DNA of 64,000 nucleotides, taken from assembly GCF_003610255.1 (NCBI RefSeq), contig NZ_RAPS01000001.1:6785001-6849000 (forward strand). The letters are read 5' to 3'. The DNA comes from Streptomyces sp. TLI_171. Lineage in GTDB: Bacteria > Actinomycetota > Actinomycetes > Streptomycetales > Streptomycetaceae. Positions 13,858 to 50,501 of the stretch are shown piece by piece. The notes below the pieces were generated by a model, which had not been told where the DNA came from, did no database searches, and worked only from the letters and a program-made list of their open reading frames with translations. Each line of letters opens with the position of its first letter. The stretch's first letter is position 1. Position numbers and translations under genes: made by a program.

Positions 13858-13887
13858 CCGGGCCGGGCCGAACCCGGCCCGGCCCGG
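13858..13887. terminator. Bidirectional hairpin terminator between eda and cobM
   Basis: CCGGGCCGGGCC (13,858-13,869) pairs perfectly with GGCCCGGCCCGG (13,876-13,887) across GAACCC. It fills the 36-bp gap between two convergent genes. Confidence 0.8.
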
Positions 13888-13891
13888 CGGG

Positions 13892-26328: not shown

Positions 26329-26354
26329 TCAGCTGTCCGCAGTCAGCTGTCCGC
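26329..26354 (-). repeat. Short direct repeat duplicating the end of the hydroxymandelate synthase gene
   Basis: TCAGCTGTCCGC occurs at 26,329-26,340 and again at 26,343-26,354. On the coding strand the last codons plus stop (GCGGACAGCTGA) are repeated 14 bp downstream. It looks like a small slippage duplication just past the stop. Confidence 0.75.
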
Positions 26355-32018: not shown

Positions 32019-32299
32019 GGCGCGGCTGCCCCCGCGTGCGGGTCCGCCCCGGCGGCGGCGAGCTGCGCGCCGAGCGCGGCGACCGCGTCGTCCACCGTCC
32101 GGATGGCGTCCAGGCGCTCGTCGTCGAGGTCGAGCTGGACACCGAAGGCCTGCTCGGCCTGGGCGATCAGCCAGGCCAGTTCCAGCGAGCCCAGGTGCTC
32201 GTCGACCTGCTCGGGGGAGCGGTCGCCGTAGCGGGCGAGCATCGCCAGCACCTCGGCGCGGCCGAGGACCGGGGGAGCGTCCTGCGGGCGGTCGTCCAT
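32015..32299 (-). CDS. Acyl carrier protein ACP2
   Basis: This 94-residue carrier protein has its likely phosphopantetheine serine in DEHLGSLELAWLIAQ (S38), where the usual DS is replaced by GS. Acidic helices II-III follow (LDLDDERLDAIRTVDDAVAAL). It overlaps ACP1 by one base and the C-N-H KS by four. It is one of three carriers in the cluster and is probably loaded by one of the two AMP ligases. Confidence 0.85.
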   Translation of the reverse strand: MDDRPQDAPPVLGRAEVLAMLARYGDRSPEQVDEHLGSLELAWLIAQAEQAFGVQLDLDDERLDAIRTVDDAVAALGAQLAAAGADPHAGAAAP

Positions 32300-32565
32300 C
32301 AGGCGGTGCCGACCGCGGACTTGGCGACCCGGGCGGCGACCTCGGCGCTGAACTCGTCGATGGTCATCAGCGCGGTGGACTCCATGTCGTCCAGCTCGAA
32401 GCGGATGCCGAACTCCTCCTCGACCTGCACCGCCAGGTCGGCCAGTGCCAGCGACTCCAGGTCGAGGCCGGCCGGGCCCAGGTCGGTCTCCGAAGTGACC
32501 TGCGAGACGTCGTAGTTCATCGACGCCAGGGTGGTGAGGACGAACGAGCGGATCTGTTCCTGCAT
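32299..32565 (-). CDS. Acyl carrier protein ACP1
   Basis: This 88-residue carrier protein has its phosphopantetheine serine in GLDLESLALADLAVQ (S38) and typical acidic flanks (EEEFGIRFELDDMEST). GGAGAGAG precedes the ATG. It lies 144 bp after the A1 ligase gene and directly before ACP2. A1 is the natural candidate to load it. Confidence 0.9.
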   Translation of the reverse strand: MQEQIRSFVLTTLASMNYDVSQVTSETDLGPAGLDLESLALADLAVQVEEEFGIRFELDDMESTALMTIDEFSAEVAARVAKSAVGTA

Positions 32566-34304: not shown

Positions 34305-35396
34305 ATGGTTCCGCTCACGCTGGCGGAGCACGGCACGCTGGCGAAGGCCCGGCTGCCCGCCGTGATCTGGGACTTCTTCGAAGGCGGAGCGGGCGCCGAA
34401 TGGACCGCGCGCGCCAATCTGGACGCCTGGCAGCGGCACGTGCTGCGCCCGCGCGTCCTGGTGGACGTCTCCGCGCCCGACAGCGGGACCGAACTGCTCG
34501 GCGCCCGGCTGGCCGCCCCGCTCGGCGTCGCCCCGATGGCCTACCACCGGCTGGCCCACCCCGACGCGGAGTGCGCCACCGCCGAGGCCGCCGCCGACAC
34601 CGGTACGCTGCTGGTCGCCAGCATCTTCGCCAGCCGCACCCTGGAGCAGATCGCCGCCGCCGCACCCGGCGCGCCGCGCTGGCTCCAGCTGTACTGGCTG
34701 CGCGACCGCGAGGCGCTCGCCGCGCTGGTCCGGCGCGCCGAACAGGCCGACTACCGGGCGCTGGTGCTCACCGTCGACGCACCCAAGGTCGGCCGCCGGC
34801 TGCGCGACCTGCGCAACGCCTTCGCGCTGCCGCCCGGCCTGACCGCCGCCAACCTGGACCCGGCCCTGACCAGCGCCGCCGGTCGGGCTGCGCCCGGCCG
34901 CTCCGGCATCGAGGAGCACTCGCGGCAGCAGTTCGACACCCGCATCACCTGGGCCGACCTGGCCTGGCTGCGTGCGCGCACCACGCTGCCGCTGGTGCTC
35001 AAGGGCGTGCTCACCGCCGAGGACGCCCGGCTCGCCGTCGAGCACGGCGTGGACGCGCTGGTGGTCTCCAACCACGGCGGCCGCCAGCTCGACGGCGCCC
35101 CGCCCGCGCTGGCCGCGCTGCCCGAGGTGGTCGACGCCGTCCCCGCCGCGCTCCCCGTGCTGGTCGACGGCGGCCTGCGGCACGGCGCCGACCTCGCCAA
35201 GGCGCTCGCGCTCGGCGCCCGTGCCGCGCTGGTCGGCCGCCCCGTGCTGTGGGGCCTGGCGCACGGCGGCGCGGAGGGCGCGCGGGCCGTGCTCGACCTG
35301 CTGCGCGAGGAGCTGCTCGACACCATGGTGCTGGCCGGCCGGCCGACCCTGGCGGACCTCGACCGCACCGCGCTGGGGCCCTGGCCGCCGCACTGA
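34305..35396 (+). CDS. hmo: 4-Hydroxymandelate oxidase (FMN-dependent alpha-hydroxy-acid oxidase)
   Basis: This 363-residue FMN TIM-barrel enzyme oxidises (S)-(4-hydroxy)mandelate to the arylglyoxylate. It shows LGVAPMAYHRLAHPDAE, LVLKGVLTAEDARLAV (FMN Lys), the catalytic VVSNHGGRQLDG (His/Arg) and LVDGGLRHGADLAKAL. AGGAGG at 34,289-34,294 precedes the ATG at 34,305. It diverges from A1 and starts arm B. With hmaS and the HpgT-like gene it forms the standard three-step (hydroxy)phenylglycine route. Confidence 0.92.
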   Translation: MVPLTLAEHGTLAKARLPAVIWDFFEGGAGAEWTARANLDAWQRHVLRPRVLVDVSAPDSGTELLGARLAAPLGVAPMAYHRLAHPDAECATAEAAADTGTLLVASIFASRTLEQIAAAAPGAPRWLQLYWLRDREALAALVRRAEQADYRALVLTVDAPKVGRRLRDLRNAFALPPGLTAANLDPALTSAAGRAAPGRSGIEEHSRQQFDTRITWADLAWLRARTTLPLVLKGVLTAEDARLAVEHGVDALVVSNHGGRQLDGAPPALAALPEVVDAVPAALPVLVDGGLRHGADLAKALALGARAALVGRPVLWGLAHGGAEGARAVLDLLREELLDTMVLAGRPTLADLDRTALGPWPPH

Positions 35397-36341: not shown

Positions 36342-37315
36342 TGCCGCTGCACCCCCAGGCCGAGGCGGTGCGCGCCCGCCGCGCCGCCGCCGGCACCCCG
36401 CCGCTGTACACCCGCACCCTGGAGGAGGCCCGCGCCGCCGACCTCGCCGACCTGCGCGCCGCCGCCGGCACCGGCGAAAGCGTGCACAGCGTCCGCGAGT
36501 TCGTGCTCGACGGCCCCGGCGGGCCGCTCACCCTGCGGCACTACCTGCCGAAACCCGTCGTCGACGGCGACCCGCCCGGCCCCGCCCTGCTCTACCTGTA
36601 CGGCGGCGGGTGGGCGCTCGGCTCGCTGGAGACCGGTGACCCGGTCTGCCGCTCGCTCGCCAACGCCACCGGCGCCGCCGTCCTCGCCGTCGGCTACCGG
36701 CACGCCCCCGAACACCGCTTCCCGGCCGCCGTCCACGACTGCTACGCCGCCCTGGAGTGGATCGCCCACAACGCCGACCGCCTCGGCCTCGACCCCGCCC
36801 GCCTCGCGGTCGGCGGCGACAGCGCCGGCGGCAACCTCGCCGCGGCCCTCACCCTGCTCGCCCGCGAGCGCGGCGGCCCGGCGATCCTCCACCAGCTGCT
36901 GGTCTACCCGAACACCGACCACCGGGTGCCCGGCGGGAGCGAGCGGACGGCGGGCACAGCCGCCGACGACCAGGACCCCGCGCTGTTCAACCGGCACTCG
37001 GTGGCCTGGTACTGGTCGCACTACCTGGCCGAGCCGGCGGACGCCGCGAACCCGCTGGCCTCGCCGTTGCGGGCCGCCGACCACCGGGGGCTGCCCGCGG
37101 CGACCGTGATCACCGCCGAGTACGACCCGCTGTGCGCGGAGGGCGAGGAGTACGCCGAGGCGCTGCGGCGGGCCGGCGTGCCCGTCGAGCTGCGGCGCTA
37201 CGCCGGGATGCCGCACGGGTTCTTCGCGATGCCGGGCCTGCTGGACGACGGGCGGGCAGCCCAGCTGTTCGCCGCCGAACGGCTGGTGGCGGCGTACGCG
37301 GAGGGCGGGCGGTGA
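36341..37315 (+). CDS. Alpha/beta hydrolase, hormone-sensitive-lipase family
   Basis: This 324-residue esterase has the nucleophile motif AVGGDSAGGNLAAALTLL, an acid residue region TAEYDPLCAEGEEYAEAL and the histidine in GMPHGFFAMPG. The oxyanion motif, usually HGGG, reads LYLYGGGWALGS (Tyr for His). It may act as a thioesterase-like release enzyme or esterase in the pathway. It overlaps its neighbours (TGATG upstream, GTGA downstream), so all of arm B is one transcript. Confidence 0.87.
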   Translation: MPLHPQAEAVRARRAAAGTPPLYTRTLEEARAADLADLRAAAGTGESVHSVREFVLDGPGGPLTLRHYLPKPVVDGDPPGPALLYLYGGGWALGSLETGDPVCRSLANATGAAVLAVGYRHAPEHRFPAAVHDCYAALEWIAHNADRLGLDPARLAVGGDSAGGNLAAALTLLARERGGPAILHQLLVYPNTDHRVPGGSERTAGTAADDQDPALFNRHSVAWYWSHYLAEPADAANPLASPLRAADHRGLPAATVITAEYDPLCAEGEEYAEALRRAGVPVELRRYAGMPHGFFAMPGLLDDGRAAQLFAAERLVAAYAEGGR

Positions 37316-38619
37316 GCCGGCTGCTTCAGCTCGCGGACCTGCACGGTTCGCTCGCGGACCCGCTGCTGGACGCGATGACCTTCCTCAACGAGGTCACCGG
37401 TCGCTACCCCGAGGCGATCTCCTTCGCACCCGGTCGCCCGTACGAGGAGTTCTTCGACCCGGCGGACATCCCGGTGTTCCTCGCGGAGTACCTGGGCCAC
37501 CTGCGCGAGGAGCGCGGGCTTACGGAGCACCAGGTCCGGCAGGAGGTGTTCCAGTACGGGCGCACCAAGGGGCTGATCGCGCCGCTGATCGCCCGGGCGC
37601 TGGCCGCCGACGAGGCGATCGAGGTCGACCCCGAGGCGCTGGTGGTCACCGTCGGCGCGCAGGAGGGCATGCTGCTGGTGCTGCGCGCGCTGTGCGCGGG
37701 GCCGGACGACGTGCTGCTGGTCTCCTCGCCCTGCTACGTCGGCGTGACCGGCGCGGCCCGGCTGCTCGACCTGACGGTCCGTCCGGTGCCCGAGGCCGGG
37801 CCGGACGGCGGGCTCGACCCGGCGGCGCTGGCGCAGGCCGTCCGGGAGCTGCGCGCCGCCGGTCAGCGGCCCCGGGCGTGCTACGTGGTGCCGGACTTCG
37901 CCAACCCGAGCGGCGCCAGCATGGACGAGCCGGCCCGCCGCCGGCTGCTGCAGGTCGCCGAGGAGACCGGCGTGCTGCTGATCGAGGACAACCCGTACGG
38001 CTTCTTCGGCCGCTCCGGGGCCGCCCGGCCCACCCTGAAGGCCCTGGACGGCGACCGCGGCAACGTGGTCTACCTGGGCTCCTTCGCGAAGACCTGCTTC
38101 CCCGGCGCCCGGGTCGGCTACCTGGTCGCCGACCAGCGGGTGGTCGGCCCGGACGGGGCGCGGAGCCTGCTGGCCGACGAGCTGGCCAAGCTGAAGAGCA
38201 TGACCACCGTGAACACCTCGGCGCTCAGCCAGGCCGTGATCGGCGGCATGCTGCTGCGCGGCGGGCTGCGCCTGCGGGAGGCGAACGAGCCCGCCCGGCA
38301 GTTCTACGCCCGCAACATGGACACCCTGCTGGCCGCGCTGGACCTCGCCTTCCAGCACCTTCCCGGGGTCTCCTGGAACCGGCCGGAAGGCGGCTTCTTC
38401 GCGGTCGTCACCGTGCCGTTCCGGGCCGACGCGCGGGCGCTGGACGAGTGCGCCCGCAAGCACGGCGTGCTGTGGACCCCGATGGACGGCTTCCACCCGG
38501 ACGGCGGCGGCACGCACCAACTGCGGCTGTCCTGCTCCTACCTGACGCCGGAGCAGATCGTGGAGGGCGTGCGGCGGCTGGCCCGGTTCGTGGCGGAGCG
38601 GCTGCCGGACGGCGCCTGA
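37312..38619 (+). CDS. hpgT: PLP aminotransferase, HpgT/PglE-like ((hydroxy)phenylglycine aminotransferase)
   Basis: This fold-I aminotransferase of 435 residues resembles MocR/KAT-II-type enzymes: AISFAPGRPYEEFF, TVGAQEGMLLVLRAL, VPDFANPSGASMDEPAR, LLIEDNPYGFFGRSG and the PLP-lysine region VYLGSFAKTCFPGARVGYLV. HpgT converts (4-hydroxy)phenylglyoxylate to (4-hydroxy)phenylglycine. The presence of hmaS and hmo in the same cluster is the main reason for this specificity. GTG overlaps the esterase stop (GTGA). A perfect 16-bp hairpin follows the gene. Confidence 0.87.
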   Translation: MSRLLQLADLHGSLADPLLDAMTFLNEVTGRYPEAISFAPGRPYEEFFDPADIPVFLAEYLGHLREERGLTEHQVRQEVFQYGRTKGLIAPLIARALAADEAIEVDPEALVVTVGAQEGMLLVLRALCAGPDDVLLVSSPCYVGVTGAARLLDLTVRPVPEAGPDGGLDPAALAQAVRELRAAGQRPRACYVVPDFANPSGASMDEPARRRLLQVAEETGVLLIEDNPYGFFGRSGAARPTLKALDGDRGNVVYLGSFAKTCFPGARVGYLVADQRVVGPDGARSLLADELAKLKSMTTVNTSALSQAVIGGMLLRGGLRLREANEPARQFYARNMDTLLAALDLAFQHLPGVSWNRPEGGFFAVVTVPFRADARALDECARKHGVLWTPMDGFHPDGGGTHQLRLSCSYLTPEQIVEGVRRLARFVAERLPDGA

Positions 38620-38685: not shown

Positions 38686-39450
38686 TCAGCGGATGCGCTG
38701 GGCGAACAGGCGGGCGGCCCAGGCGACCGCGAGGGCCATCATGAGGGCGGTGAGCAGCAGGCCGCGCCAGACCTCGGGGGCGTCCAGATGGCCGGCGAAC
38801 AGGGCGCGCATGCCCTCCACGGCCCAGTAGCAGGGGTTCCAGGACGCGGCGGTGCGCAGCCAGGCCGGGGCAAGGGCGATCGGCAGCAGGGTGCCGGAGA
38901 GCAGCGCGAGGGGCTGGGCGATGGTGTTGACGACCGGGCCGAGCGCGGCGTCGGTGGGCACCAGCAGCGCCAGGCCGTAGGAGACCGACGAGGACATCAG
39001 CGCCATCAGCGCGAGCAGGGCCATCGCGAGCAGCAGGTCGAGGAAGCCGACGGTCAGGCCGAACGGGATGGCCAGGACGGCGATCAGGAGCGACTGGATC
39101 AGCAGCGCGGTGGTCTCCCGCAGGGCCCGGCCGAGCAGCAGTGCGACCCGGCTGACGGGCGTGACGCGGGAACGTTCGATGATGCCGGCGTGGAGTTCGC
39201 CGAGCAGCGTGAACCCGGTGAACAGGCCGCCCATCACGGCGAGCGCGGAGAGCAGACCGGGCACGTAGACGCGGTACGCGTCGGCGGTGCTGTGCGCGCC
39301 GGACGCGGCCAGCGCGGAGGTCAGCAGCGGGGCGAACAGCAGCAGGTAGCACAGGGGCTGGAGCAGTCCGACGGCGATCCAGGCGGGGGATCGGGCCATC
39401 AGGAGCAGTTGGCGCTGGTAGACCAGCCAGGTGTCGCGGGCGAGCTTCAC
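38686..39450 (-). CDS. ABC-2 type transporter permease (DrrB-like)
   Basis: This 254-residue membrane protein has about six helices, e.g. WIAVGLLQPLCYLLLFAP, LSALAVMGGLFTGFTLL and LLIQSLLIAVLAIPFGL. The family loop GIIERSRVTPVSRVALLLGR and ASWNPCYWAVEGMRALFAG near the C-terminus are as in daunorubicin-type exporters. The GTG at 39,450 follows GAGG. It partners with the ATPase gene 47 bp upstream. The pair probably exports the cluster product and gives self-resistance. Confidence 0.92.
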   Translation of the reverse strand: MKLARDTWLVYQRQLLLMARSPAWIAVGLLQPLCYLLLFAPLLTSALAASGAHSTADAYRVYVPGLLSALAVMGGLFTGFTLLGELHAGIIERSRVTPVSRVALLLGRALRETTALLIQSLLIAVLAIPFGLTVGFLDLLLAMALLALMALMSSSVSYGLALLVPTDAALGPVVNTIAQPLALLSGTLLPIALAPAWLRTAASWNPCYWAVEGMRALFAGHLDAPEVWRGLLLTALMMALAVAWAARLFAQRIR

Positions 39451-39497: not shown

Positions 39498-40454
39498 TCA
39501 GCTGTGCACGAGCGGGCGGCCGGTGAGGGCGAGGAACACGTCGTCCAGGCTGGGGCGCTGGAGCTGGACGTGCTCGGGCTCGATGCCGGCGGCGGCCAGG
39601 GTGCGCAGCAGCTGCGGGATCGCGGTGGCCGCGGAGTCCACGTGCAGGCGCAGGCCGTCCCCGTCGGACAGCGCCTCCAGGCGCTGGACGCAGGGGAGTT
39701 CGGCGAGCGCGCGCTCCGCGCGGGCGGCGTCCTCGGCCCCGGGCAGCCCGATCGTGACGGCGTCGCCGGAGATCTCCTGCTTGAGCTGCTCGGGGGTGCC
39801 CTCGTTGACGATGCCGCCGTGGTCGACGATGCCGATCCGGTCGCACAGGGCGTCGGCCTCGTCCAGGTAGTGGGTGGTGAGCAGCACCGTCATGCCCTGC
39901 TCGCGCAGGCGGCGGACCTCGGCCCAGACCTGGGCGCGGCTGCGCGGGTCGAGGCCGACAGTGGGCTCGTCCAGGAACAGCACCTTGGGGCGGTGGACGA
40001 CGCCGAGGGCGAGGTCGAGGCGGCGGCGCTGGCCGCCGGAGTAGGTCTTGCAGGGGCGGTCGCCGAACTCGGCGAGGTCGAAGGCGGCCAGACCCTGTTC
40101 GGCGCGCTGGACGGCGTCGGCCTTGCGGATGCCGTACATCCGGGCCTGCAGGACCAGTTCCTCGCGGGCGGTGGCCTGGTCGGTGGTGCCGCCGCCCTGG
40201 GCGACGTAGCCGATCCGGCGGCGGACCTCGCCGGGCTCGGCGCGAAGGTCGGCGCCCGCGATGCTGGCGGCGCCGCCGTCGGGGACGAGCAGGGTGGCGA
40301 GCATCCGCAGGGTGGTGGTCTTGCCCGCGCCGTTGGGCCCGAGCAGGCCGTAGATCTCGCCCTCCTCCACGGTGAGGTCGATGCCGCGCACCGCGTCGAC
40401 GGCGGTGCCGCGACGGGGCCGGTAGGACTTGCGCAGCCCCTTGGTGACGATCAA
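39498..40454 (-). CDS. ABC transporter ATP-binding protein (DrrA-like)
   Basis: This 318-residue ATPase has Walker A in LLGPNGAGKTTTLRMLATL, the signature KTYSGGQRRRLDLALG and Walker B VLFLDEPTVGLDPRSR. The H-loop is in VLLTTHYLDEADAL, and a DrrA-type C-terminal extension follows (QLQRPSLDDVFLALTGRPL). The start is taken as the TTG at 40,452-40,454, which has AGGAG six bases upstream; no ATG/GTG fits better. It energises the permease encoded downstream. Confidence 0.92.
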   Translation of the reverse strand: MIVTKGLRKSYRPRRGTAVDAVRGIDLTVEEGEIYGLLGPNGAGKTTTLRMLATLLVPDGGAASIAGADLRAEPGEVRRRIGYVAQGGGTTDQATAREELVLQARMYGIRKADAVQRAEQGLAAFDLAEFGDRPCKTYSGGQRRRLDLALGVVHRPKVLFLDEPTVGLDPRSRAQVWAEVRRLREQGMTVLLTTHYLDEADALCDRIGIVDHGGIVNEGTPEQLKQEISGDAVTIGLPGAEDAARAERALAELPCVQRLEALSDGDGLRLHVDSAATAIPQLLRTLAAAGIEPEHVQLQRPSLDDVFLALTGRPLVHS

Positions 40455-40543: not shown

Positions 40544-41770
40544 CTAGGGCGCGACCCGCCCCGCCGACAATGGTCTGGACCAGCTGGGGGCGTCGGGTCG
40601 GCGTGCTGCGCGGGCGAACCGTTCCAGGTGCCCGGCGGCGGCCACCGCACCTCCGCCGGCCAGCAGTTGACGCCCCAGCAGCTCGGCTGCCGTGCGGAGC
40701 CCGGGCAGGTCCAGGGCGGTCCGCAGCGCGGTGCGCAGCTGGTCCGAGGTGGCGGTGGCGAAGTCCACCGGCACGGCCGCGCCCAGTGCGGACAGGCGCG
40801 CGGCGGTGACCGGCTGGTCGTGCCGGATCGGGGCGACCACCAGCGGCCGCCCGTGGACCAGGGATTCGCCGACGGTGTTCATCCCGCCGTGGCACAGTAC
40901 GGCGTCCACCGCCCCGCGCTCAAGCAGTTGCAGCACCGGGACCCGCTCGCAGCCGATCGTGCCGGGCGGCAGCGCCGTCCCGCCGGGGGCCGCCACCACG
41001 GCCTGGACGTCCGGGAGTTCGGCCAGCGCGGCGGCCGTCCGGTCCAGGAAGCCGCCCGCCACCTCGGCGGACAGGGTGCCCATGGTGACCAGCACCCGGC
41101 GCCGGCGCAGATCCAGCCGCTCCCAGGGGAAGGCGGGTTCGGGCCGGGCGGCGAGCAGCGGCCCGACCAGCGCGTAGTGCTCGGGCGTCGCGTCCAGGCC
41201 GAGCAGCGCGGCGCAGCTCGCCGCGATCACCAGGTGCGGGGAGAACCGCGGGTCGGTGAACTCGGCGGCCGGCAGCCCGGCCCGCTCCCACAGGCCGCGC
41301 AGCACCCCGTCCCGCCAGGCCGTCAACTCGCCGTCGCCGCCCAGCGGATCGCCGATCTCCAGCGAGGACGGTGCGAAGGTCGCCCAGGGCACGCCCGCGC
41401 CGTGCGCGGCCAGCGCGCCGGCCGGGCTGTGCTGGTCGACCAGCACCACGTCCGGCCGCCACTGCTCGACGGCGCGGCGCACCGCGCCCAGCGTGAACCG
41501 GGTGTGCGGCGCCACGAAGCCGTCCCAGAGCGAGCGGACCGCGGCGGCGCCGCCCGCCGCCTGCTCGCGGAACACCCGGGCGCCGGTCGGGTGCACCACG
41601 GCGTCCGGGCCGAGCACCGGGCGCAGCGCCGACTCCGGCCCGACCCAGGACACCAGGTGGCCGCGGTCGGCCCAGGCCAGCGCCAGGGCGCGGGCCGGCA
41701 GCAGGTGCCCGGTCAGCGGGGGCGCCACCACCAGCAGGCGCAGCGGGGGGTCGGAGACGTCGGACGGCAT
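40544..41770 (-). CDS. UDP-glycosyltransferase (macrolide/MGT type, GT1)
   Basis: The 408-residue GT-B enzyme has an N-terminal LLVVAPPLTGHLLPARALAL and the C-terminal donor-site signature VDAVLCHGGMNTVGESLVHG followed by PIRHDQPVTAARL, typical of MGT-family glycosyltransferases of macrolides, polyenes and aromatic compounds. It implies a glycosylated product or glycosylation-based self-resistance. No sugar-nucleotide genes occur in the window, so a common UDP-sugar may be used. It diverges from the KAS III gene over a 194-bp promoter region. Confidence 0.9.
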   Translation of the reverse strand: MPSDVSDPPLRLLVVAPPLTGHLLPARALALAWADRGHLVSWVGPESALRPVLGPDAVVHPTGARVFREQAAGGAAAVRSLWDGFVAPHTRFTLGAVRRAVEQWRPDVVLVDQHSPAGALAAHGAGVPWATFAPSSLEIGDPLGGDGELTAWRDGVLRGLWERAGLPAAEFTDPRFSPHLVIAASCAALLGLDATPEHYALVGPLLAARPEPAFPWERLDLRRRRVLVTMGTLSAEVAGGFLDRTAAALAELPDVQAVVAAPGGTALPPGTIGCERVPVLQLLERGAVDAVLCHGGMNTVGESLVHGRPLVVAPIRHDQPVTAARLSALGAAVPVDFATATSDQLRTALRTALDLPGLRTAAELLGRQLLAGGGAVAAAGHLERFARAARRPDAPSWSRPLSAGRVAP

Positions 41771-41964: not shown

Positions 41965-42897
41965 GTGACCGCTCTGGAAGCAGTCGCCGTCCACCTTCCG
42001 CCCACCGCCGAACCGATCGAACTGGTCGGGGAGCGCCTTGGGCTGACGGACCGTCAGGTCAGGCTTTTCCGCCGGTTCCACGGCCTCGACCAGGTCCGGG
42101 TGGACCACGACGGAGACCTGACCGATCTGCTCACCGCCGCAGCGACGGCCCTGGCCCCGCTGCGCGGGAACGAACACCGTGTGAAGTACGTGCTGCACGC
42201 GCGCAGCCTGCCGATCGCGGCGCCCTACCCGCACAACCCGCTGCACGAGGTGCTCGGCCGTCTGGGGCTGACGCACGCACGTGCCTTCACCATCACCCAC
42301 CACGCCTGCGCCGGCACTCTGCTGGCCCTGGACGTGGCCGGTCGGCTGCTGGCGGCAGAATCCGACCCCGAGGCGCTGGCGTTGATCCTGGCGGGCGAGA
42401 AGACCTTCACCCGGGACGCCCGAATCGTCCCGGAGACCGCCCTGTTCGGCGAGGGGGCGGCCGCCTGCCTGGTGCGGGCCGAAGGCGAACACGACCGCGT
42501 GCTGTCGTACGCGGTCGACCAGCACGGCGAGTTCGACGGGCGACTCGCCGACGATCCGGAACTGATGGTGCGCTACCAGCGCAGCTACCCGGAGCTGATG
42601 GTCGCCGTGATGCAGGCGGCACTGGACGACGCCGGCGAGAGCTGGGAGTCGATCCGGCTGCTGCTGCCGCACAACGTCAACCAGATCTCCTGGCAACGGA
42701 TCTGCCGCCAGATCGGGTACCCGCCCGAACGCGTGGTGCTGGACAACGTCCCCGCGGTGGGGCACAGCTTCGCCGCCGACGTCCTGCTCAACCACCACAC
42801 CGCCACCGGCCGCGGCCTGCTCCGCCGCGGCGACCGCTACCTGGTCGCCGCGTCCGGAATCGGCGCGACCTTCGCCGCCATGGTGCTCCAGCACTGA
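41965..42897 (+). CDS. 3-Oxoacyl-ACP synthase III (KAS III)-like protein, atypical triad
   Basis: This 310-residue thiolase-fold enzyme has its nucleophile Cys in TITHHACAGTLLAL (C115) and a His in LLLPHNVNQISW (H236). The third residue, Asn in FabH (GNTSAAS), is replaced by His in AVGHSFAADVLL (H267). It may start a chain, or transfer an acyl group as KAS III-type acyltransferases do. It begins arm C and is followed by a carrier protein, a likely partner. The GTG start is just after a -10 box. Confidence 0.83.
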   Translation: MTALEAVAVHLPPTAEPIELVGERLGLTDRQVRLFRRFHGLDQVRVDHDGDLTDLLTAAATALAPLRGNEHRVKYVLHARSLPIAAPYPHNPLHEVLGRLGLTHARAFTITHHACAGTLLALDVAGRLLAAESDPEALALILAGEKTFTRDARIVPETALFGEGAAACLVRAEGEHDRVLSYAVDQHGEFDGRLADDPELMVRYQRSYPELMVAVMQAALDDAGESWESIRLLLPHNVNQISWQRICRQIGYPPERVVLDNVPAVGHSFAADVLLNHHTATGRGLLRRGDRYLVAASGIGATFAAMVLQH

Positions 42898-43027: not shown

Positions 43028-43345
43028 ATGACCGACTCCGCCCTGCCCGAAAACCCCGCGACCGCCGCGGACAGCGCCGTCGACCCCGAGCTGCGCGGCC
43101 GCGCCCTCGACGGCATCCTGCTGCTGCTGCCCCGGGTGCTCAAGCGCGAACTGCCCGAAGTCGGCGAGAACGCCTGCCTGTTCGACGAGGTCGGGCTGAC
43201 CTCCGCCGCCACCCTGGAACTCATCCTGGAACTCGAGGACCACCTCGACGTGCAGATCGACGTCGAAGGCATCGACCAGGACGACCTGCGCTCGGTCGGC
43301 ACCCTCGCGGGCTTCGTCGCCGGACACGTCATCGCCGAGGACTGA
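43028..43345 (+). CDS. Carrier protein ACP3
   Basis: This 105-residue carrier protein has its phosphopantetheine serine in DEVGLTSAATLELILELE (S59), then DVQIDVEGIDQDDLRSVGTL. A ~25-residue flexible N-terminal tail makes it longer than ACP1/ACP2. It sits between two KAS-type genes and upstream of the amino acid:[carrier protein] ligase, making it the prime candidate substrate for aminoacylation. Confidence 0.88.
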   Translation: MTDSALPENPATAADSAVDPELRGRALDGILLLLPRVLKRELPEVGENACLFDEVGLTSAATLELILELEDHLDVQIDVEGIDQDDLRSVGTLAGFVAGHVIAED

Positions 43346-43350
43346 CGACC

Positions 43351-44238
43351 GTGCGCGTCCGCGGACCGCTGCCCCCGACCACCCTGCCGCGCACCGCCTC
43401 CGCGCTGCGCCTGACCGCCGCCCACGCCCTCGACCTCGACGGCCACTCCCCGCTCGCCGCCGACCCCGACCTGCGCACCTTCACCGCCGACCTGGCCCGC
43501 CCCTACGGCCTGGAACTCGACGAGGACGCGCTGGCCGGGGCCCGCGGCCAGTCCTACCTGGCCCTCGCCGAACCCGCCGTCGCCCGCCTGGTCGACGACA
43601 CCCGCCCCGTCGACCTGCTGGTGCTGGTGTACGCCGGCCCCGACGTCCGGCCCGGGCAGTCCGTCGCCATCCAGCTCAGCGGAGCGTGCCCCGGCGAGCC
43701 GCTGTCCTTCGCCCTCTGCGACGAGGGCGCGGGCGGCGCCTTCAGCGCGCTCCGGATCGCCGACGCCTACGCCCGCACCGGCGGCGCCCGGCGCGCCCTG
43801 CTGATCGCAGTGGAACAGGCCGACCTGCACCACCGCCCGCACCGGCCCGCCCGGCTGCCCGACCGGCACTCCGCCGCCGCGCTGCTCTGGGAGTCGGACG
43901 GCGGCGGGCGGGCGCTGCAACTCACCGCGCAGGAAACCGATCTGATGGAACCTCAGATTGTCCAAGCGCTGCGGAAGTTGTGCGGCGAGCTGCCCGAGGA
44001 CACGCTCCTGGTGCTCGGACCGGGACTGGCCGCGGTCGACGCGCCGGACGGAACGGCGAGCCTGCGCGCCCGCGCCGGCAACCCGTACACCGGCGGATGG
44101 GCCGCGCTCGGCGCGGTCCTCACCGACCCGCAGCACGCGGACCGGCCACTGGCCCTCGCCGACTTCGAACCCGAGACCGGCCGGCTCGACCTCGCCTGCT
44201 GGACCCGGCCCGAGCACCAGGAGGCGCAGCCGACATGA
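43351..44238 (+). CDS. Degenerate KAS-like (thiolase-fold) protein
   Basis: The 295-residue protein follows the KAS fold loosely: LALAEPAVARLV, a Cys at FALCDEGAGGAFSALRI (C123) where the nucleophile should be, and AGNPYTGGWAALGAVL like the FabH Asn loop. The catalytic His block (PHQxN) is missing; LLVLGPGLAAVD stands in its place. It may be an acyltransferase or a structural partner of the KAS III upstream. GTG at 43,351 lies five bases after ACP3. Its stop overlaps the PPTase start (ATGA). Confidence 0.65.
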   Translation: MRVRGPLPPTTLPRTASALRLTAAHALDLDGHSPLAADPDLRTFTADLARPYGLELDEDALAGARGQSYLALAEPAVARLVDDTRPVDLLVLVYAGPDVRPGQSVAIQLSGACPGEPLSFALCDEGAGGAFSALRIADAYARTGGARRALLIAVEQADLHHRPHRPARLPDRHSAAALLWESDGGGRALQLTAQETDLMEPQIVQALRKLCGELPEDTLLVLGPGLAAVDAPDGTASLRARAGNPYTGGWAALGAVLTDPQHADRPLALADFEPETGRLDLACWTRPEHQEAQPT

Positions 44239-45170
44239 CCGAGATCTGGCTGATCCCCACCGACACCGGCCCCGAACAGGCCCGCGCCCTGCTGGCGCTG
44301 CTCGACCCCGCCGAACGCGCCCGCGCCCGGAGCGCCCCCGCCGGACCGCAACGGCACCGCTTCATCACCGCGCACGCCGCCGCGCGGCTGCTCACCGCGG
44401 CCGCCGCCGGCCTGCCGCCGGAGCGGATCCGCTGGCGGCACGGCCCGCACGGACGCCCCGAACCGGACGGGCTGGACGGACGGTTGAGCGTCAACCTGTC
44501 CACCGCCGGGCCGTGGGCGCTGTTCGCCGTCGAGCGCCGCCCCGCCGACGGCGGCGCCATCGGCGTCGACCTGGAGCCCGTGCCCACCGTGGAGGCCGCG
44601 GCGCGGCTCGCCCGCCGCTACTACCCCGAGGCCGAAACCACCGGCGACGCCGAGGAGTTCACCCTGCGCTGGACCCGCAAGGAGGCCTACACCAAGGCCC
44701 GCGGCGGCCGCCTCGCCGACGGCCTGCGCACCCCCGCCGGCCCGACCGGCACCCCGGGACCGCACCGGCTGTACGGCCCGCTCGGCCCCTGCACCGTCCG
44801 CGACCTCCCCGCCCCGCCCGGCCACCGCGCCGCCCTCGCCCGCACCGGCACCCGCCCGCTCCCCCCGCCCAACCTGCGCCGCTACCCGATCGACGCCCCC
44901 GAACTGCTCGCCCGCCCGGACGCCCCCGACCTGTTCGGCCGAGCCGCCGACGGCGAACTCGTGCACCGGGCGCGAGAAGGCGAGCAGCTCGGTCGGGCGG
45001 ACGCCGCCGAGCTGTTCGGCGCCCGCGAGCAGTCGGACCGCGCCGCGCCGCGGGTTCTCGTCGCTGCGCGGGACTCCGGTGCTCCGCAGCCATGCACCGA
45101 TCCGCCGGGCCGCGCTGCGGGCGCTGGCCCGGGCGGGGCTCACCGTTCCTTCGCCGTTCGCCGGCCCTGA
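44235..45170 (+). CDS. 4'-Phosphopantetheinyl transferase (Sfp type) with a long C-terminal extension
   Basis: PPTases convert apo carrier proteins to the holo form using CoA. The Sfp-type motifs are AIGVDLEPV (~110) and TLRWTRKEAYTKARG (~144-158). The usual SHS-type motif is altered (SVNLSTAGPW). The enzyme core ends near residue 225. Residues ~225-311 form an Ala/Arg/Pro-rich extension with two similar stretches, PELLARPDAPDLFGR and RADAAELFGAREQ, of unknown role. It probably activates the three carriers of this cluster. ATGA overlap couples it to the KAS-like gene. Confidence 0.85.
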   Translation: MTEIWLIPTDTGPEQARALLALLDPAERARARSAPAGPQRHRFITAHAAARLLTAAAAGLPPERIRWRHGPHGRPEPDGLDGRLSVNLSTAGPWALFAVERRPADGGAIGVDLEPVPTVEAAARLARRYYPEAETTGDAEEFTLRWTRKEAYTKARGGRLADGLRTPAGPTGTPGPHRLYGPLGPCTVRDLPAPPGHRAALARTGTRPLPPPNLRRYPIDAPELLARPDAPDLFGRAADGELVHRAREGEQLGRADAAELFGAREQSDRAAPRVLVAARDSGAPQPCTDPPGRAAGAGPGGAHRSFAVRRP

Positions 45171-45184
45171 CCCTGAGGCAGAAC

Positions 45185-46063
45185 ATGAACCGCCATCCCG
45201 ACGACGCCACCCCGCTGGCCACTGCCGCGCCCGGCGTCCAACTGCAGCCCGCCGCGTACGAGAAGCTGCTCGGTGCGCTCCGCGACTCGATCGGGCGGCT
45301 GGCCGCCGAGGAGTCCTTCGAGCGGCTGGTCGTACCGCCCGTGATCTCCCGGGCCACCATCGAGCGGGCCGGGTACGCCGCGTCCTTCCCGAACCTGCTG
45401 GGCACGGTGCACAGCTACACCGGCAGCGCCGCCGACTGGCGGCGGCTCTCGCCGCTGATCGCCGAGGACGGCCCCTGGCACGTGCAGCAGGAGATCTCCG
45501 ACCTGGTGCTGCTGCCCGCCGCCTGCTACCCCGTGTATGCCACGCTCGCCGGGCGGGACCTGGAACAGCCCGTCCGGTTCAGCGTCGAGGCGCAGTGCTT
45601 CCGGCAGGAGGCGACCGCCGAGGCCGGCCGGCTGCGGACCTTCCGAATGGCCGAACTGGTCACCGCGGGCACCGCGGAGCACTGCCAGAACTGGCGCGAG
45701 CACTGGCTGCAGCGGGTCGCCGACTGGATGGAGACCCTCGGGCTGAAGCCGTCGATCGAACTCGCCGACGACCCGTTCTTCGGCGGCGGCCGCCGGATCT
45801 ACCAAGCGGCCCAGCGCGCGCAGGAGTTGAAGTTCGAGCTGCGGGTCCCGGTGGCGGAGGGCCTGCCGCAGGCGATCGCCTCCGCGAACATCCACAAGGA
45901 CCACTTCGGCGAGGCGTTCGAGTTCACCGCCGGCGGCGAGCGCGGCAACACCGCCTGCACCGCGTTCGGCCTGGACCGGATCGCGCTCGCGCTGCTGCAC
46001 ACCCACGGCTCCCGCCCGGTCGACTGGCCGGAGCCCGTCCGCACCGCGCTGAACGGAGCCTGA
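45185..46063 (+). CDS. Amino acid:[carrier protein] ligase (seryl-tRNA-synthetase-like)
   Basis: This 292-residue class II synthetase-like protein lacks the tRNA-binding arm of SerRS. Motif 2 is visible in QCFRQEATAEAGRLRTFRM and motif 3 in TACTAFGLDRIALALLH. The unusual zinc-site residues of the aa:CP ligase family fit C114 (PAACYPVY), E157 (FRMAELVT) and C258 (NTACTAF). Bradyrhizobium homologues activate glycine or alanine and load it on a carrier protein, not tRNA. Here it lies between the PPTase and two condensation proteins, so it should charge a carrier (ACP3 likely) with a small amino acid. GAGG at 45,175 precedes the ATG. Confidence 0.88.
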   Translation: MNRHPDDATPLATAAPGVQLQPAAYEKLLGALRDSIGRLAAEESFERLVVPPVISRATIERAGYAASFPNLLGTVHSYTGSAADWRRLSPLIAEDGPWHVQQEISDLVLLPAACYPVYATLAGRDLEQPVRFSVEAQCFRQEATAEAGRLRTFRMAELVTAGTAEHCQNWREHWLQRVADWMETLGLKPSIELADDPFFGGGRRIYQAAQRAQELKFELRVPVAEGLPQAIASANIHKDHFGEAFEFTAGGERGNTACTAFGLDRIALALLHTHGSRPVDWPEPVRTALNGA

Positions 46064-46067
46064 CGGC

Positions 46068-47729
46068 ATGTCGGCCACCCGAGCCGTCACGGTCCGCTAC
46101 CGGGCCGCCGCGCCCGAGACCGAGGGGCCGGTCACCCTCGGTCAGGACAACATGCTCCGCTGCCTGGGCAACGAACAGCCGTCCCGGGAGAAGAACGAGC
46201 CCTCCTCGCTGAACAAGCAGGCGAGCTGGATCGTCCCCGAGGGCGCCGACCTGGCGCGCTGCCTGGACGCCCTGCGGACCCTCGCCGAGCGGCACGCCGC
46301 CCTGCGCACCGTCTTCCGCGGTCCGGACGGCGGGTTGCCGGAGGTCCAGCGACAGCTCCAGGAGGGCGAGTTCACCGTCGAGGTGATCCCGCTCGGCCCG
46401 GACGAGGACGCCTCGGCCCGAGCGGACGCGTTCTGCTGGGACAGCCGCTGCCACCCGTTCGACCTCGCCGCCGACTTCCCGCTGCGCCTCGGCCTGCTCA
46501 CCCGGGACGGCCGCCCCGTGCTGCTCGGCGTGGTGGTCTGCCACGCCCAACTCGACGGTGTGGCCACCGGGTTGCTGTTCCAGGAGTGGCTGGCCCTCGC
46601 CTCCGGCGGCGAACTGCCGCCGGCCACCGGCCCCACCCCGATCGAGGTCGCCGAACAGGAACGCTCCACCGGGGGACGGCGGCGCGCCCGGGCCGCCCTC
46701 CGCCACTGGAAGCGCATCCTCGACGAGGAGCCGTCCGCCGTCTTCGCCGACGACCGGGTCCGCTCCGGCGACATCATGCTGCACACCCTGGCCATCCGCA
46801 GCCGGGCCGGCGCCGAGGCCCTGGAACGGGCCGTCCGGCGCACCGCCAGCTCCAAGTCCGCCGTTCTGAGCGCCTGTTACGCCGCGCTCGCGGCCCACCG
46901 GGCGGCCCGGTCGACGGTGGTGATGGCCGCACTCTCCGCCAACCGGCACCGCTCCGTCCTGGCCGAGCACATCGGCACCCTCGCCCAGGACGCCCTGCTG
47001 GTCCTGGACACCGACTGCCCGGACCTCGACACCCTGATCGGCCGCACCCAGGCCGAGGCCCTCTCCGGCTACTGGCACGCCACCTTCGAGACCGAACGGC
47101 TCTGGGAGATCCTGGAGGACTCCGCCCTCCGGCGCGGCGCCCGGTTCGTCCGCGACGTCGTGCTGAACGACGTCAGCGGCACCGTCCCCGAGGAGATCGC
47201 CGCGCTGCGCCCCGGCCCCGCCGCCGAGCCCGACCTGACCTGGTACCCGACCGAACCGCTCCCCACCCGGCTGATGATCAACATCTGGCGCACCACCGGC
47301 TGCCTGGAGATCAGCCTGCACGCCCACCCCGACGTCCTCGACCGCGAGGAGACCGAGGGCTTCGCGCTCGCCCTGCTCCGGCTGATCGACCTCGCCGGAC
47401 GGCGCAACGTCGCCCTCGGCCCCGAGGGTGAACTCGCCGAGCTCAGCGGCCTGCCCGTCGGCCGCCGCGAGAAGGGCCGCTGGGTGCAGGTCGGCCCCAA
47501 CTGGGTCGACCTGGACGCCGTCGCCGACCGGGTCCGGGCCGTCCTGGCCGTCAAGGACGCCGACGTGAGCTGGGAGAACGGCGAACTGACCGCCACGGTG
47601 CCGACCGGGTGCGCCCTGTCGCCCACCGAGGCGCACGCCGCGATGGTCGCCGCGCTCTCCTGGCGCGACACCGTGATGGCCCCGCACCGCTACGTCCTCC
47701 CGTCCGGCACCGGCACCGGACGGGAGTGA
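46068..47729 (+). CDS. Free-standing condensation-domain protein C1
   Basis: The 553-residue protein is an NRPS condensation (C) domain without A or T domains. The catalytic motif reads VVVCHAQLDGVATG: the second His, Asp and Gly of HHxxxDG are kept and the first His is Cys158. Later C-domain features include ALRTLAERHAALRTVFR, MAALSANRH and EHIGTLAQDALL. After ~residue 455, NWVDLDAVADRVRAVL to MAPHRYVLP resembles the small C-terminal subdomain of adenylation enzymes. It should form an amide between two carrier-bound acyl/aminoacyl groups, or with a free amine. Confidence 0.85.
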   Translation: MSATRAVTVRYRAAAPETEGPVTLGQDNMLRCLGNEQPSREKNEPSSLNKQASWIVPEGADLARCLDALRTLAERHAALRTVFRGPDGGLPEVQRQLQEGEFTVEVIPLGPDEDASARADAFCWDSRCHPFDLAADFPLRLGLLTRDGRPVLLGVVVCHAQLDGVATGLLFQEWLALASGGELPPATGPTPIEVAEQERSTGGRRRARAALRHWKRILDEEPSAVFADDRVRSGDIMLHTLAIRSRAGAEALERAVRRTASSKSAVLSACYAALAAHRAARSTVVMAALSANRHRSVLAEHIGTLAQDALLVLDTDCPDLDTLIGRTQAEALSGYWHATFETERLWEILEDSALRRGARFVRDVVLNDVSGTVPEEIAALRPGPAAEPDLTWYPTEPLPTRLMINIWRTTGCLEISLHAHPDVLDREETEGFALALLRLIDLAGRRNVALGPEGELAELSGLPVGRREKGRWVQVGPNWVDLDAVADRVRAVLAVKDADVSWENGELTATVPTGCALSPTEAHAAMVAALSWRDTVMAPHRYVLPSGTGTGRE

Positions 47730-47783
47730 CCCCGGTCCACCGGACCGAGCATCACCGGCACCACCCGAACGGAGACTGACGAG

Positions 47784-49427
47784 ATGTCAGCTGAAGAGAC
47801 CGTCACCGTCCGCTACCGGGTCGACGCGCCCGGAGCGGACGGGCCGCTCACCCTCGGCCAGGACAACATGATCCGCTGCCTGCGCCACGACGAACCCTCC
47901 CACATGAACAAGCAGGCCACCTGGACCGTCCCGCCCGGCGCGGACCTCCCCGCCTGCCTGGACGCCCTGCGCACTCTCGCCGAACGCCACGCCGCCCTGC
48001 GGACCGTCTTCCCCGGCCCCGCCGACCGCCAGCCCGAACGCCAGCAGCTGCGCGCCGAAGGCGAGTTCACCGTGCGGGTGATCGCCCTCGCGGACGGCGA
48101 GGACCCGGCCGAACGCGCCGAGCGCTACTGCTGGGACGGCCGCCGGCAGGCCTTCGACCTGGCCGACGAGTTCCCGCTGCGCTTCGCCGTGCTCACCCGC
48201 GACCGGCGGCCCGTGCTGCTCCCCGTGGTCATCTGCCACGCCCAACTCGACGGCGTGGCCACCGGGTTGTTGTTCCAGGAGTGGCTCACCCTGGCCGCCG
48301 GCGGCACCCTGCCCGCGCCGACCGCGCCCACCCCGATCGAGGTCGCCGAACAGGAGCGGTCCAACTCCGGTCTGCGCCGCACCCGGGCCGCGCTCCGGCA
48401 CTGGGAGCACATCCTCGCGCAGCAGCCGTCCGCGGTGTTCGCCGACGACCGGATCGGCCCCAACGACACCCGGCTGCCCACCCTCGGCATCCGCTCCACC
48501 GCCGGCGCCGCCGCCCTGGAGCGCGCCGCCGAGCGCACCGGCGCCTCCACCTCGGCCGTGCTGCTGGCCTGCTACGCCACCCTGGCGGCGCACCGGGCGG
48601 CCCGCAGCACCGTGGTGATGGCCGCGCTGTCCGCCAACCGCCACCGCCCCGGCCTGGCCGAGCACATCGGCACCCTGGCGCAGGACGCGCTGCTGGCCGT
48701 CGACACCGACTGCCCCGACCTGGACACCCTGATCGGCCGCACCCAGGCCCAGGCGCTGTCCGGCTACTGGCACGCCACCTTCGACGCCGAACGGATCTGG
48801 CAGCTGATCGAGGACGTCGCCGTCCGGCGCGGCGCCCGGTTCGCCCGACACGTGGTGGTCAACGACCTCAGCGGCACCGTTCCCGCCGAGGTCGCCGCCC
48901 GGCGCCCCGAACCCCCCGCCGACCCCGACCTCACCTGGTACCCCGCCGAGCCCACCCCGACCCGGCTGATGCTCAACGTCTGGCGGACCGCCGGCTGCCT
49001 CGAATTCACCCTGCACACCCACCCCGACGTCCTCGACCGCGAGGAGACCGAGCAGTTCGGGCACGCGCTGCTGCGCCTGCTCGACCTGGCCGGGCAGCGC
49101 AACGTCCGGCTCGGCGCCGACGGCGAGATCGGCGCGCTCAGCGGCCTGCCCGTCGGCCGCCGCGAGAAGGGCCGCTGGCAGCAGATCGGCAGCAACTGGG
49201 TCGACCTGGACGCCGTCGCGGACCTGCTGCGCACCGCCCTTCCCGTCGTGGACGCCGACGTGACCTGCGCGGACGGGGTGCTGACGGCCAGGATCGGGAC
49301 CACGGGCGAGCCGCTCACACCGCGGGAGGCGCACGCGGCGGTGATGGCCGCGCTGCCCGGCCACGACACCGCGATGGCGCCGCACCACTACCTGCTGCCC
49401 GGAGGCGGCGGCAGCGGCCGGGACTGA
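47784..49427 (+). CDS. Free-standing condensation-domain protein C2 (tandem paralogue of C1)
   Basis: The 547-residue protein is clearly homologous to C1 along its full length, with long nearly identical blocks such as LDGVATGLLFQEWL, PTPIEVAEQERS and AARSTVVMAALSANRH. It too has VVICHAQLDGVATG (first His is Cys151) and the same C-terminal A-subdomain-like tail (NWVDLDAVADLLRTALP). A recent tandem duplication with a 54-bp spacer is likely. Divergence sits mainly in the first 130 residues and around TGASTSAVLLACY, perhaps reflecting different donor or acceptor groups. Confidence 0.85.
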   Translation: MSAEETVTVRYRVDAPGADGPLTLGQDNMIRCLRHDEPSHMNKQATWTVPPGADLPACLDALRTLAERHAALRTVFPGPADRQPERQQLRAEGEFTVRVIALADGEDPAERAERYCWDGRRQAFDLADEFPLRFAVLTRDRRPVLLPVVICHAQLDGVATGLLFQEWLTLAAGGTLPAPTAPTPIEVAEQERSNSGLRRTRAALRHWEHILAQQPSAVFADDRIGPNDTRLPTLGIRSTAGAAALERAAERTGASTSAVLLACYATLAAHRAARSTVVMAALSANRHRPGLAEHIGTLAQDALLAVDTDCPDLDTLIGRTQAQALSGYWHATFDAERIWQLIEDVAVRRGARFARHVVVNDLSGTVPAEVAARRPEPPADPDLTWYPAEPTPTRLMLNVWRTAGCLEFTLHTHPDVLDREETEQFGHALLRLLDLAGQRNVRLGADGEIGALSGLPVGRREKGRWQQIGSNWVDLDAVADLLRTALPVVDADVTCADGVLTARIGTTGEPLTPREAHAAVMAALPGHDTAMAPHHYLLPGGGGSGRD

Positions 49428-49553: not shown

Positions 49554-50501
49554 ATGGAGCTGTTCCCGCCCCTGCCCCTGGAGTCCTGGGGGGACACCAA
49601 GGAGACCCTGCACCGCTTCACCCAGGTCATCGGCAAGATCCGGCTGGCGGGCAGCGCCCGGCGCAACCACTGGTGGAACGTCCCCTTCCACCTCACCGGA
49701 CGCGGCATCACCACCCGCCCCACCGGCCCGACCCGCGGCGGCGACGCCTTCACCGTCGACTTCGACTTCACCGACCACCGGCTGTACGTGCGCACCCTGT
49801 CCGGCGCCGAGGACTCCTTCCCGCTGGCCGGGCGCTCCGTCGGCGACTTCTACCGCGACACCCTGCGGGCCCTGGTCCACCTGGACATCGACGTCCTCCC
49901 CGACCACCCCTACCCGTACGACCTGCCGGACGCGCACCGGCCGTTCGCCGACGACCACGAGCACCGCAGCTACGACCCGGACGCCGTCACCAGGTACTGG
50001 CGGATCCTCAGCCAGGTCGGCCTGCTGCTGGAGGAGTACGCCGCCGGGTACTCCGGCAAGACCAGCCCCGTGCACCACTTCTGGCACACCTTCGACATCG
50101 CCGTCACCCGGTTCTCCGACCGGGAGACCGAGCAGTCCACGGCGGATCCCGTGACCCGCGAGGCCTACTCCCGCGAGGTCATCAGCGCGGGTTTCTGGTT
50201 CGGCGACGACCAGGTGCCCGCCCCGGCCTTCTACTCCTACACCGCTCCGGAACCTGCCGGCCTGGAGACCCGCCCGCTGCACCCGGCCGCCGCCCGCTGG
50301 TCCCCGAACCGGGGCAGCCACCTCGCGCTGCTGATGTACGACGAGCTGCGGCAGGCCGCCGATCCGTGGGGAACGGCGCTGGAGTTCCTGGAGTCGGCGT
50401 ACCGCGCGGGCGCGGAGCTGGCCGGCTGGGGCCGGCAGCGGGAGTGCCCGGGCGGGATCACCGACGCGAAGCTGCGGGTGCTGCCCGGAGCCGATCAGTA
50501 G
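49554..50501 (+). CDS. DUF5996 family protein
   Basis: This ~315-residue soluble protein has conserved blocks LPLESWGDTKETLHRFTQV, NHWWNVPFHLTGRGITT, SPVHHFWHTFDIAVTRFS and ISAGFWFGDDQVPAPAFYS, which I recognise as DUF5996. No function is assigned. Many Trp/His residues suggest a ligand or metal site. The ATG at 49,554 has GGAG seven bases upstream; an ATG at 49,512 is also in frame. It is 126 bp after C2 and overlaps the convergent GT39 gene by 7 bp. It may or may not belong to the cluster. Confidence 0.8.
   Translation: MELFPPLPLESWGDTKETLHRFTQVIGKIRLAGSARRNHWWNVPFHLTGRGITTRPTGPTRGGDAFTVDFDFTDHRLYVRTLSGAEDSFPLAGRSVGDFYRDTLRALVHLDIDVLPDHPYPYDLPDAHRPFADDHEHRSYDPDAVTRYWRILSQVGLLLEEYAAGYSGKTSPVHHFWHTFDIAVTRFSDRETEQSTADPVTREAYSREVISAGFWFGDDQVPAPAFYSYTAPEPAGLETRPLHPAAARWSPNRGSHLALLMYDELRQAADPWGTALEFLESAYRAGAELAGWGRQRECPGGITDAKLRVLPGADQ

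Follow-up and report, generated by a model that had tools for sequence, protein, structure and literature searches.

An amino acid:[carrier protein] ligase encoded beside free-standing condensation proteins in a recurrent gene block of Streptomycetaceae

Genes at the locus

The DNA analysed here is a 64-kb stretch (64,000 nucleotides, hereafter the window) of the 8.46-Mb genome of Streptomyces sp. TLI_171, which comprises three contigs and carries the label G000 in our comparisons (G denotes a genome and L a locus of the comparison set). Between positions 43028 and 49427, it encodes an amino acid:[carrier protein] (aa:CP) ligase together with two free-standing condensation-domain (C) proteins. 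An earlier note on this DNA had listed a carrier, a 4'-phosphopantetheinyl transferase (PPTase), an aa:CP ligase and two free-standing C proteins here, and all of these genes are present according to matches in Pfam, NCBIfam and the Protein Data Bank (PDB). On the forward strand, the set begins with the acyl carrier protein (ACP) ACP1 (43028-43345; PF00550, 30.8 bits, over the cut-off), whose serine lies within GLTSA. It continues with KASx (43351-44238), a protein with a KASIII fold without the catalytic Cys that was recognised from its predicted structure and a Foldseek search and was absent from the note's gene list, the PPTase (44235-45170; PF01648, 37.7 bits, over the cut-off), the ligase (45185-46063; 292 aa, with a class II core like that of seryl-tRNA synthetase, SerRS), and the C proteins C1 (46068-47729) and C2 (47784-49427), which match PF00668 at 73.6 and 83.9 bits, respectively (cut-off 30.6), and both carry the motif CHAQLDG. 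A KASIII-like protein (41965-42897; PF08541/PF08545, with CerJ and FabH among its PDB matches) precedes the set and a DUF5996 protein (49554-50501; PF19459, E 1.2e-116) follows it on the same strand. From 41965 onward, the intergenic gaps are 130, 5, -4, 14, 4, 54 and 126 bp; the tight spacing between 43028 and 49427 (-4 to 54 bp) makes a single operon plausible, as had been proposed.

The identity of the ligase is borne out by sequence, structure and phylogenetic comparisons. It matches NCBIfam PRK07080 at 283.6 bits (E 1.6e-84), below an equivalog cut-off of 357 that no match in a sample of 297 Streptomycetaceae genomes reached either, and falls slightly under the cut-off of PF00587 (27.6 against 29.3 bits). 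Its top PDB matches are structures of Bll0957 (E 4.3e-57), a ligase type that we take entries 3mey and 4h2w to represent, and it is identical to Bll0957 at 112 of 275 aligned residues (40.7%), compared with 52 of 178 for an archaeal SerRS and 18% and 21% for the two SerRS of its own genome. Cys114, Arg140 (motif 2), Glu157 and Cys258 align with Bll0957, and the zinc set C114/E157/C258 is thus exactly as the earlier note had described it; across 102 ligases, Cys114 occurs in 101 (with one gap) and the other three residues in all. The protein has no tRNA-binding domain. In a tree with three SerRS as outgroup, the ligases and Bll0957 form one group (0.87), with all except L116 united at 1.00; because they hold together apart from the SerRS, the placement inside canonical SerRS that the note had named as fatal to its assignment was not found. 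No prediction was reached for the substrate amino acid of the ligase. The two SerRS encoded elsewhere in the genome (G000:C1:3574398-3575597 and 4091743-4092981) are full-length and canonical, both exceeding the TIGR00414 cut-off, and for the second a function in resistance or in some other pathway is conceivable.

The remaining proteins of the set were compared across 38 loci that share the block KASIII-ACP1-KASx-C (hereafter the core), 22 with the ligase and 16 without it. The GLTS serine motif of ACP1 is intact in all 38, and its best NCBIfam match is the ACP model PRK07081 (30.6 bits, under the cut-off of 72); ACP1 is the likely carrier for the ligase. C1 and C2 are 71% identical, and two copies occur in only three cores (the window, L082 and L089), so that a single C copy is the rule. 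Compared with the consensus HHxxxDG, CHAQLDG retains the second His, the Asp and the Gly and has Cys in place of the first His; this pattern extends to all 41 core C copies, where the first His is replaced by Cys or Ser. Among C proteins near other ligases, His and Asp are present in 32 of 35 by hand count, the exceptions being L108 (11251-12861), L174 and a fragment in L165. The assignment of C1 and C2 as free-standing C proteins is thereby confirmed, with PF00668 over its cut-off and the catalytic His and Asp retained, and they would putatively join carrier-bound partners by an amide or ester bond. Six of the seven named relatives of C2 belong to Kitasatospora. Sixteen of the 22 ligase-bearing cores and 14 of the 16 ligase-free ones contain the PPTase gene, and a DUF5996 gene comes after the core in 12 and 0 of them, respectively.

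The KASIII-like protein retains Cys and His, with GHS replacing the usual GNT, in 38/38 cores. Neither Pfam nor NCBIfam gave a match for KASx; the structure predicted for it (pLDDT 73.5, pTM 0.77) matched FabH in Foldseek (E 1.2e-8) and gave tied Z scores of 19-20 to OleA, PqsBC and FabH in VIA, and its catalytic Cys column holds A, S, T, V, P or G in 37 of 37 copies. PqsBC is a KASIII heterodimer with an inactive partner, and the window likewise pairs a KASIII that has Cys and His with a protein of KASIII fold that lacks the Cys, so that an active/inactive pair of the PqsBC type is possible on the basis of the model; however, identity in the structural alignment is approximately 17%, and fold alone does not show function. 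In L088, L093-L095, L136-L141 and L143-L151, a small conserved open reading frame of 84-116 aa lies between the glycosyltransferase and KASIII genes; it reads LLLDE or LMLDE at the carrier-serine site and resembles, by eye, a degenerate carrier.

An adenylation (A)-domain profile detected three AMP-binding proteins in the window, namely ANL1 (28609-30252), ANL2 (32710-34095) and a protein at 57229-59007. The FDxS motif of amino-acid-activating enzymes is absent from the first two, which the motif alignment covered, and the third is closest to the acyl-CoA synthetase MbcS (369.8 bits, cut-off 850). No recognisable amino-acid A domain is thus present within the 64-kb window, and the earlier statement that no nonribosomal peptide synthetase (NRPS) A domain accompanies the ligase is right in the strict sense. 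Two of these proteins, both AMP-forming ligases, belong to a linked arm that resembles a type II polyketide synthase (PKS), at distances of 9 and 13 kb from the operon.

Recurrence of the ligase beside condensation proteins

The PRK07080 model matches 104 of the 297 Streptomycetaceae genomes, and in a phylum-wide sample it matches 9 of 396 genomes at E 1e-20, four of them Streptomycetaceae. A search for co-occurrence with neighbouring C proteins, as the earlier note had suggested, covered 96 of 150 listed PRK07080 places, the window included, each within a stretch of at most 19.4 kb; the list was worked downward with some places omitted, its last five entries are fragments, and the duplicate named loci L009-L015 were excluded from the counts. 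Five loci that had been chosen in the knowledge of a nearby C gene (L133, L134, L135, L153 and L154) were also excluded, leaving 91. A C domain occurs in 57 of these, and a solo C protein in 48 (within approximately 9.5 kb), at most three genes from the ligase in 41 and directly adjacent to it in 31. The search therefore recovered a recurring family in which the ligase accompanies a solo C protein. The KASIII-ACP-ligase-C block itself recurs in 22 genomes, no gene separates the ligase from the C gene in any of the 22 ligase-bearing cores, and the block supplies 23 of the 31 adjacent cases (the 22 cores and L080).

The pairing is also distributed over several separate branches of the ligase tree, comprising the core with its L097-type and L107-type neighbours, L119/L123, L133/L134/L189/L194, and L180/L181/L196. 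Within the TLI_171 genome, each of three ligase places has a solo C gene no more than three genes away. A second ligase-C family is represented by L097, L099, L101-L103 and L105, in which the genes of the ligase and of a solo C protein (HHIxxDN) are adjacent or two genes apart and a different KASIII set is present. Two further neighbour groups were observed: one cluster of proteins of about 80 aa, probably carriers, has a member encoded at most four genes from the ligase in 49 of 101 loci, and another protein cluster, AurF-like in the representative scanned (PF11583, E 1.7e-31), has one at the same distance in 40 of 101 (for example, L178:8191-9087), none of them a core. The placement of this gene suggests N-oxidation of carrier-bound amino acids at those loci.

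The ligase-free cores retain KASIII, ACP1, KASx and C2 in all 16 cases, with the ACP1 serine and the C2 motif intact. The corresponding genomes have no ligase match anywhere in 11 of 16 cases and a match elsewhere in G126, G131, G159, G189 and G211. The examined stretches of these cores contain no amino-acid A domain, their only ANL protein being an ANL2 counterpart in L137. Because ACP1 and C2 persist intact in these cores, dependence of C2 on the ligase is not general. The ligase-free clusters do not form a clean clade, since the tree sets L137 and L143 apart and places L088/L093-L095 with ligase-bearing cores in between; the supports at the deciding nodes are weak (0.10, 0.46 and 0.68), and consequently neither one ligase loss nor several are shown. 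Two distant relatives of C2 in loci without a ligase differ in their activating enzymes: L155, with a 43% identical C protein, has a true protein combining A domain and peptidyl carrier protein beside it (FDIS; TIGR01733, 378 bits), and L152 has a nearby ANL protein without FDxS. L155 may represent one possible natural exchange of ligase and A domain, which does not amount to a pattern.

The surrounding cluster

The PKS-like arm and its linked genes are encoded upstream of the operon, largely on the reverse strand. They include the E1 beta (23455-24417) and E1 alpha (24414-25406) subunits of a 2-oxoacid dehydrogenase-type enzyme (PF02779/PF02780 and PF00676), a dioxygenase resembling hydroxymandelate synthase (HmaS) or HPPD (26343-27344; PDB 2r5v, E 6e-75; 4HPPD, 264.8 bits, cut-off 277), a ketosynthase (KS) with Cys and both His (27341-28612; FabF-type, 453 bits), ANL1, an AMP-forming ligase closest to the diazotase AvaA6 (NF058622, 477.5 bits, cut-off 975), a weakly AmcG-like protein (30361-30909; 27.3 bits, E 2.5e-6, cut-off 80), an AmcF-like KS-like protein (30906-32018), a probable third carrier, ACP3 (32015-32299), recognised from its LGSLEL motif without a family match, ACP2 (32299-32565; PF00550, 24.0 bits), and ANL2, an AMP-forming acyl ligase (PF00501 and PF13193). 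The AmcF model matches 30906-32018 at 140.5 bits and gives a second match of 247.2 bits, both under its cut-off of 325. As 30906-32018 is AmcF-like and keeps its Cys, having lost the first His, an assignment as chain-length factor (CLF) was ruled out. PhyH and DUF3050 genes are also located in this arm. Toward the core follow, on the forward strand, an FMN-dependent 2-hydroxyacid oxidase and possible hydroxymandelate oxidase (34305-35396; PF01070, E 5.6e-130, with glycolate, lactate and 4-hydroxymandelate oxidases among its PDB matches) and a class I aminotransferase (37312-38619; PF00155), and on the reverse strand an ABC-2 exporter (permease 38686-39450, ATPase 39498-40454; PF01061, PF00005) and a glycosyltransferase syntenic with the core (40544-41770; PF00201, PF06722).

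Across genomes with the core, an AmcF-like gene lies within 20 kb of it in 33 of 39 by hand count among the matches listed; the best match listed is on another contig in G201, G131 and G211 and far off in G171, G153 and G207. In the latter three, which are ligase-bearing, the ligase-C pair is far from any PKS-arm match among the matches listed. HmaS-like, E1 alpha and DUF3050 matches are often near the core, and 30 of 39 genomes have a DUF3050 match at all. The aminotransferase accompanies 19 of the 22 ligase-bearing cores and 14 of the 16 without a ligase, and the glycosyltransferase is syntenic in 20 of 22 and 16 of 16, respectively. Hydroxyphenylglycine was considered as the ligase substrate, as the names of the HmaS-like protein, FMN oxidase and aminotransferase would fit, yet these genes do not track the ligase; given the aminotransferase distribution, this idea led nowhere. 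A second cluster of KS, AmcF-like KS, HmaS-like and E1 genes with a C domain is located at G000:C1:7594640-7604391, with no ligase near it among the matches listed. At approximately 5353-15894 of the window, gene calls named by eye resemble CobK, CbiD and precorrin methyltransferases, and a cobalamin gene set may therefore adjoin the cluster.

The order of ANL, ACP, ACP, KS and, further on, AvaA6-like ANL genes recalls the avenalumic and p-coumaric acid clusters ava/cma (PMC10777205) and the minimal cispentacin type of the cispentacin/coronafacic acid systems (AmcB/F/G/H; PMC10698177). What these arms have in common with the window is a row of genes for an acyl-ACP ligase, a pair of small carriers, KS and KS-like proteins and an AvaA6-like ANL protein. 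They differ in that the AmcF, AmcG and AvaA6 models all score below their cut-offs here and that the arm in the window is linked to HmaS-like, E1 and ligase-C genes.

Possible fates of the loaded amino acid

Amino acid:[carrier protein] ligases of the Bll0957 type were reportedly described by Mocibob et al. in 2010 and 2013, work that is cited in PMC9437257. The ligase of the window resembles them in sequence family, zinc set, a length shorter than that of SerRS and the presence of a nearby ACP gene, but its operon also encodes condensation proteins and includes a KASIII pair. Congocidine is the product of a dissociated (type II) NRPS consisting of a stand-alone C protein, a carrier and an activating enzyme of the ANL family. 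The window similarly has free-standing C proteins and a free carrier, whereas its activating enzyme is of class II tRNA-synthetase descent. According to PMC2922099, the original aa:CP ligase loci contain an ACP gene, an oxidoreductase-like gene and a conserved gene of unassigned function, from which neighbours a sugar-linked role was guessed; PMC9437257 counts aa:CP ligases among carrier-loading enzymes. Ligases of this kind and dissociated NRPSs are thus each known, while their pairing appears to be undescribed: no publication combining an aa:CP ligase with condensation proteins was found in the open literature, with subscription papers and preprints lying outside the search.

In the route that we infer from these genes, the PPTase of the operon would prime ACP1, and the zinc-dependent ligase would activate a small alpha-amino acid with ATP and pass it to a carrier phosphopantetheine, most likely that of ACP1. 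An acyl thioester would be made elsewhere in the cluster, probably on ACP2 or ACP3 of the PKS-like arm, and C1 or C2 would then allow the amine of the aminoacyl-ACP to attack it, giving an N-acyl-aminoacyl-ACP. The KASIII/KASx pair might hand the chain on, the glycosyltransferase would finish the product and the ABC exporter would export it. From the family memberships, the gene arrangement, the conserved motifs and the recurrence of the ligase-C pairing, we consider it marginally probable that the aminoacyl carrier made by the ligase is a substrate of C1 and C2. A wider proposal, which we advance tentatively and regard as somewhat doubtful, is that class II tRNA-synthetase-derived ligases have been recruited in several branches to feed free-standing C proteins, and that the resulting A-domain-free peptide assembly, common in Streptomycetaceae outside Streptomyces proper, is the missing role of aa:CP ligases.

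Several observations weigh against the inferred route. The foremost is the absence of the ligase from 16 of the 38 cores. The earlier note had suggested that a tRNA-synthetase-derived module replaces A domains; its components are supported, namely the identity of the ligase, the free-standing C proteins, the ligase-solo-C family and the lack of a recognisable amino-acid A domain in the 64 kb, but the ligase as a simple stand-in for the A domain is too strong a claim in light of the ligase-free cores. Outside the core block, a solo C protein is found in only 25 of 68 loci, within three genes in 18 and adjacent in 8, and at 40 of 101 loci the partners of the ligase are, rather, an ACP and an AurF-like oxygenase. 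Five loci come from other actinomycete families, and the sole full C domain among them belongs to an ordinary NRPS (L165). The AlphaFold model of C2 was unusable (pLDDT 49.7). The background frequencies speak for the association: 1.9% of the TLI_171 genome is within reach of a C domain, and 16 relatives, with at least 542 C matches between them, give a hand estimate of no more than about 8% per 19.4-kb stretch. These figures are, however, unmatched for biosynthetic clusters, in which both genes reside. Since ligases and C domains both favour such clusters, the looser association may partly reflect this preference; the adjacency in 22 cores does not.

The alternative that survives best, although we consider it unlikely, is that KASIII and KASx use the aminoacyl-ACP for C-C bond formation or acyl transfer, with C1 and C2 acting on a different part of the molecule and the ligase providing an optional building block for a pathway whose C step can do without it. 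In 21 of the 22 ligase-bearing cores, KASIII, ACP1 and KASx separate the ligase from the upstream arm, which would agree with this idea, as would the retention of the C protein where the ligase is missing and the resemblance of KASx to PqsBC and OleA among KASIII-type folds. However, KASIII and KASx occur in every ligase-free core and hence depend on the ligase as little as C2, whereas the ligase never lacks its adjacent C gene in the ligase-bearing cores; even in G171 (L080), whose KASIII call is a fragment of just 53 aa and where KASx is missing from the gene calls, the two are still adjacent. It is less probable that the loaded amino acid goes elsewhere, for example to a sugar amine or a protecting group, and that the nearness of C genes reflects a shared large cluster. 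Aminoacylation of cell-surface sugars has been proposed for the rhizobial original system in a note added in proof (PMC2922099), and the glycosyltransferase is syntenic with most ligase-bearing cores; it is equally so with all ligase-free ones, and solo C genes no more than three genes from the ligase, as they occur in several branches of the ligase tree that are separate from one another, argue against a chance neighbourhood. Slightly more improbable still is the supply of an aminoacyl-ACP for on-carrier modification, a use to which aminoacyl-carrier proteins are put in other systems, after which C would use the modified unit. The AurF-like oxygenases close to other ligases suggest on-carrier oxidation at those loci, but no such gene is among the neighbours of any of the 22 cores, and the oxidases of the window occur in ligase-free clusters too. 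Finally, a canonical or resistance-type SerRS is almost certainly not encoded here: despite the class II catalytic core and matches to the archaeal SerRS models PRK00960 and TIGR00415 (61 and 55 bits), the protein lacks the tRNA-binding arm, fits the aa:CP ligase family far better and is excluded from SerRS by the tree, by its low identities and by the location of the TIGR00414 places elsewhere in the genome.

To our knowledge, no pathway has been settled for the aa:CP ligases since they became known in 2010. The conserved ligase-condensation operon makes their role directly testable, and the ligase-bearing and ligase-free versions of one cluster offer a ready natural comparison of products. 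The pairing connects enzymes of translation with the assembly of natural products, and the ligase would be a compact alternative to A domains as activator. If true, the reading of these loci as A-domain-free assembly would give aa:CP ligases their missing metabolic role.

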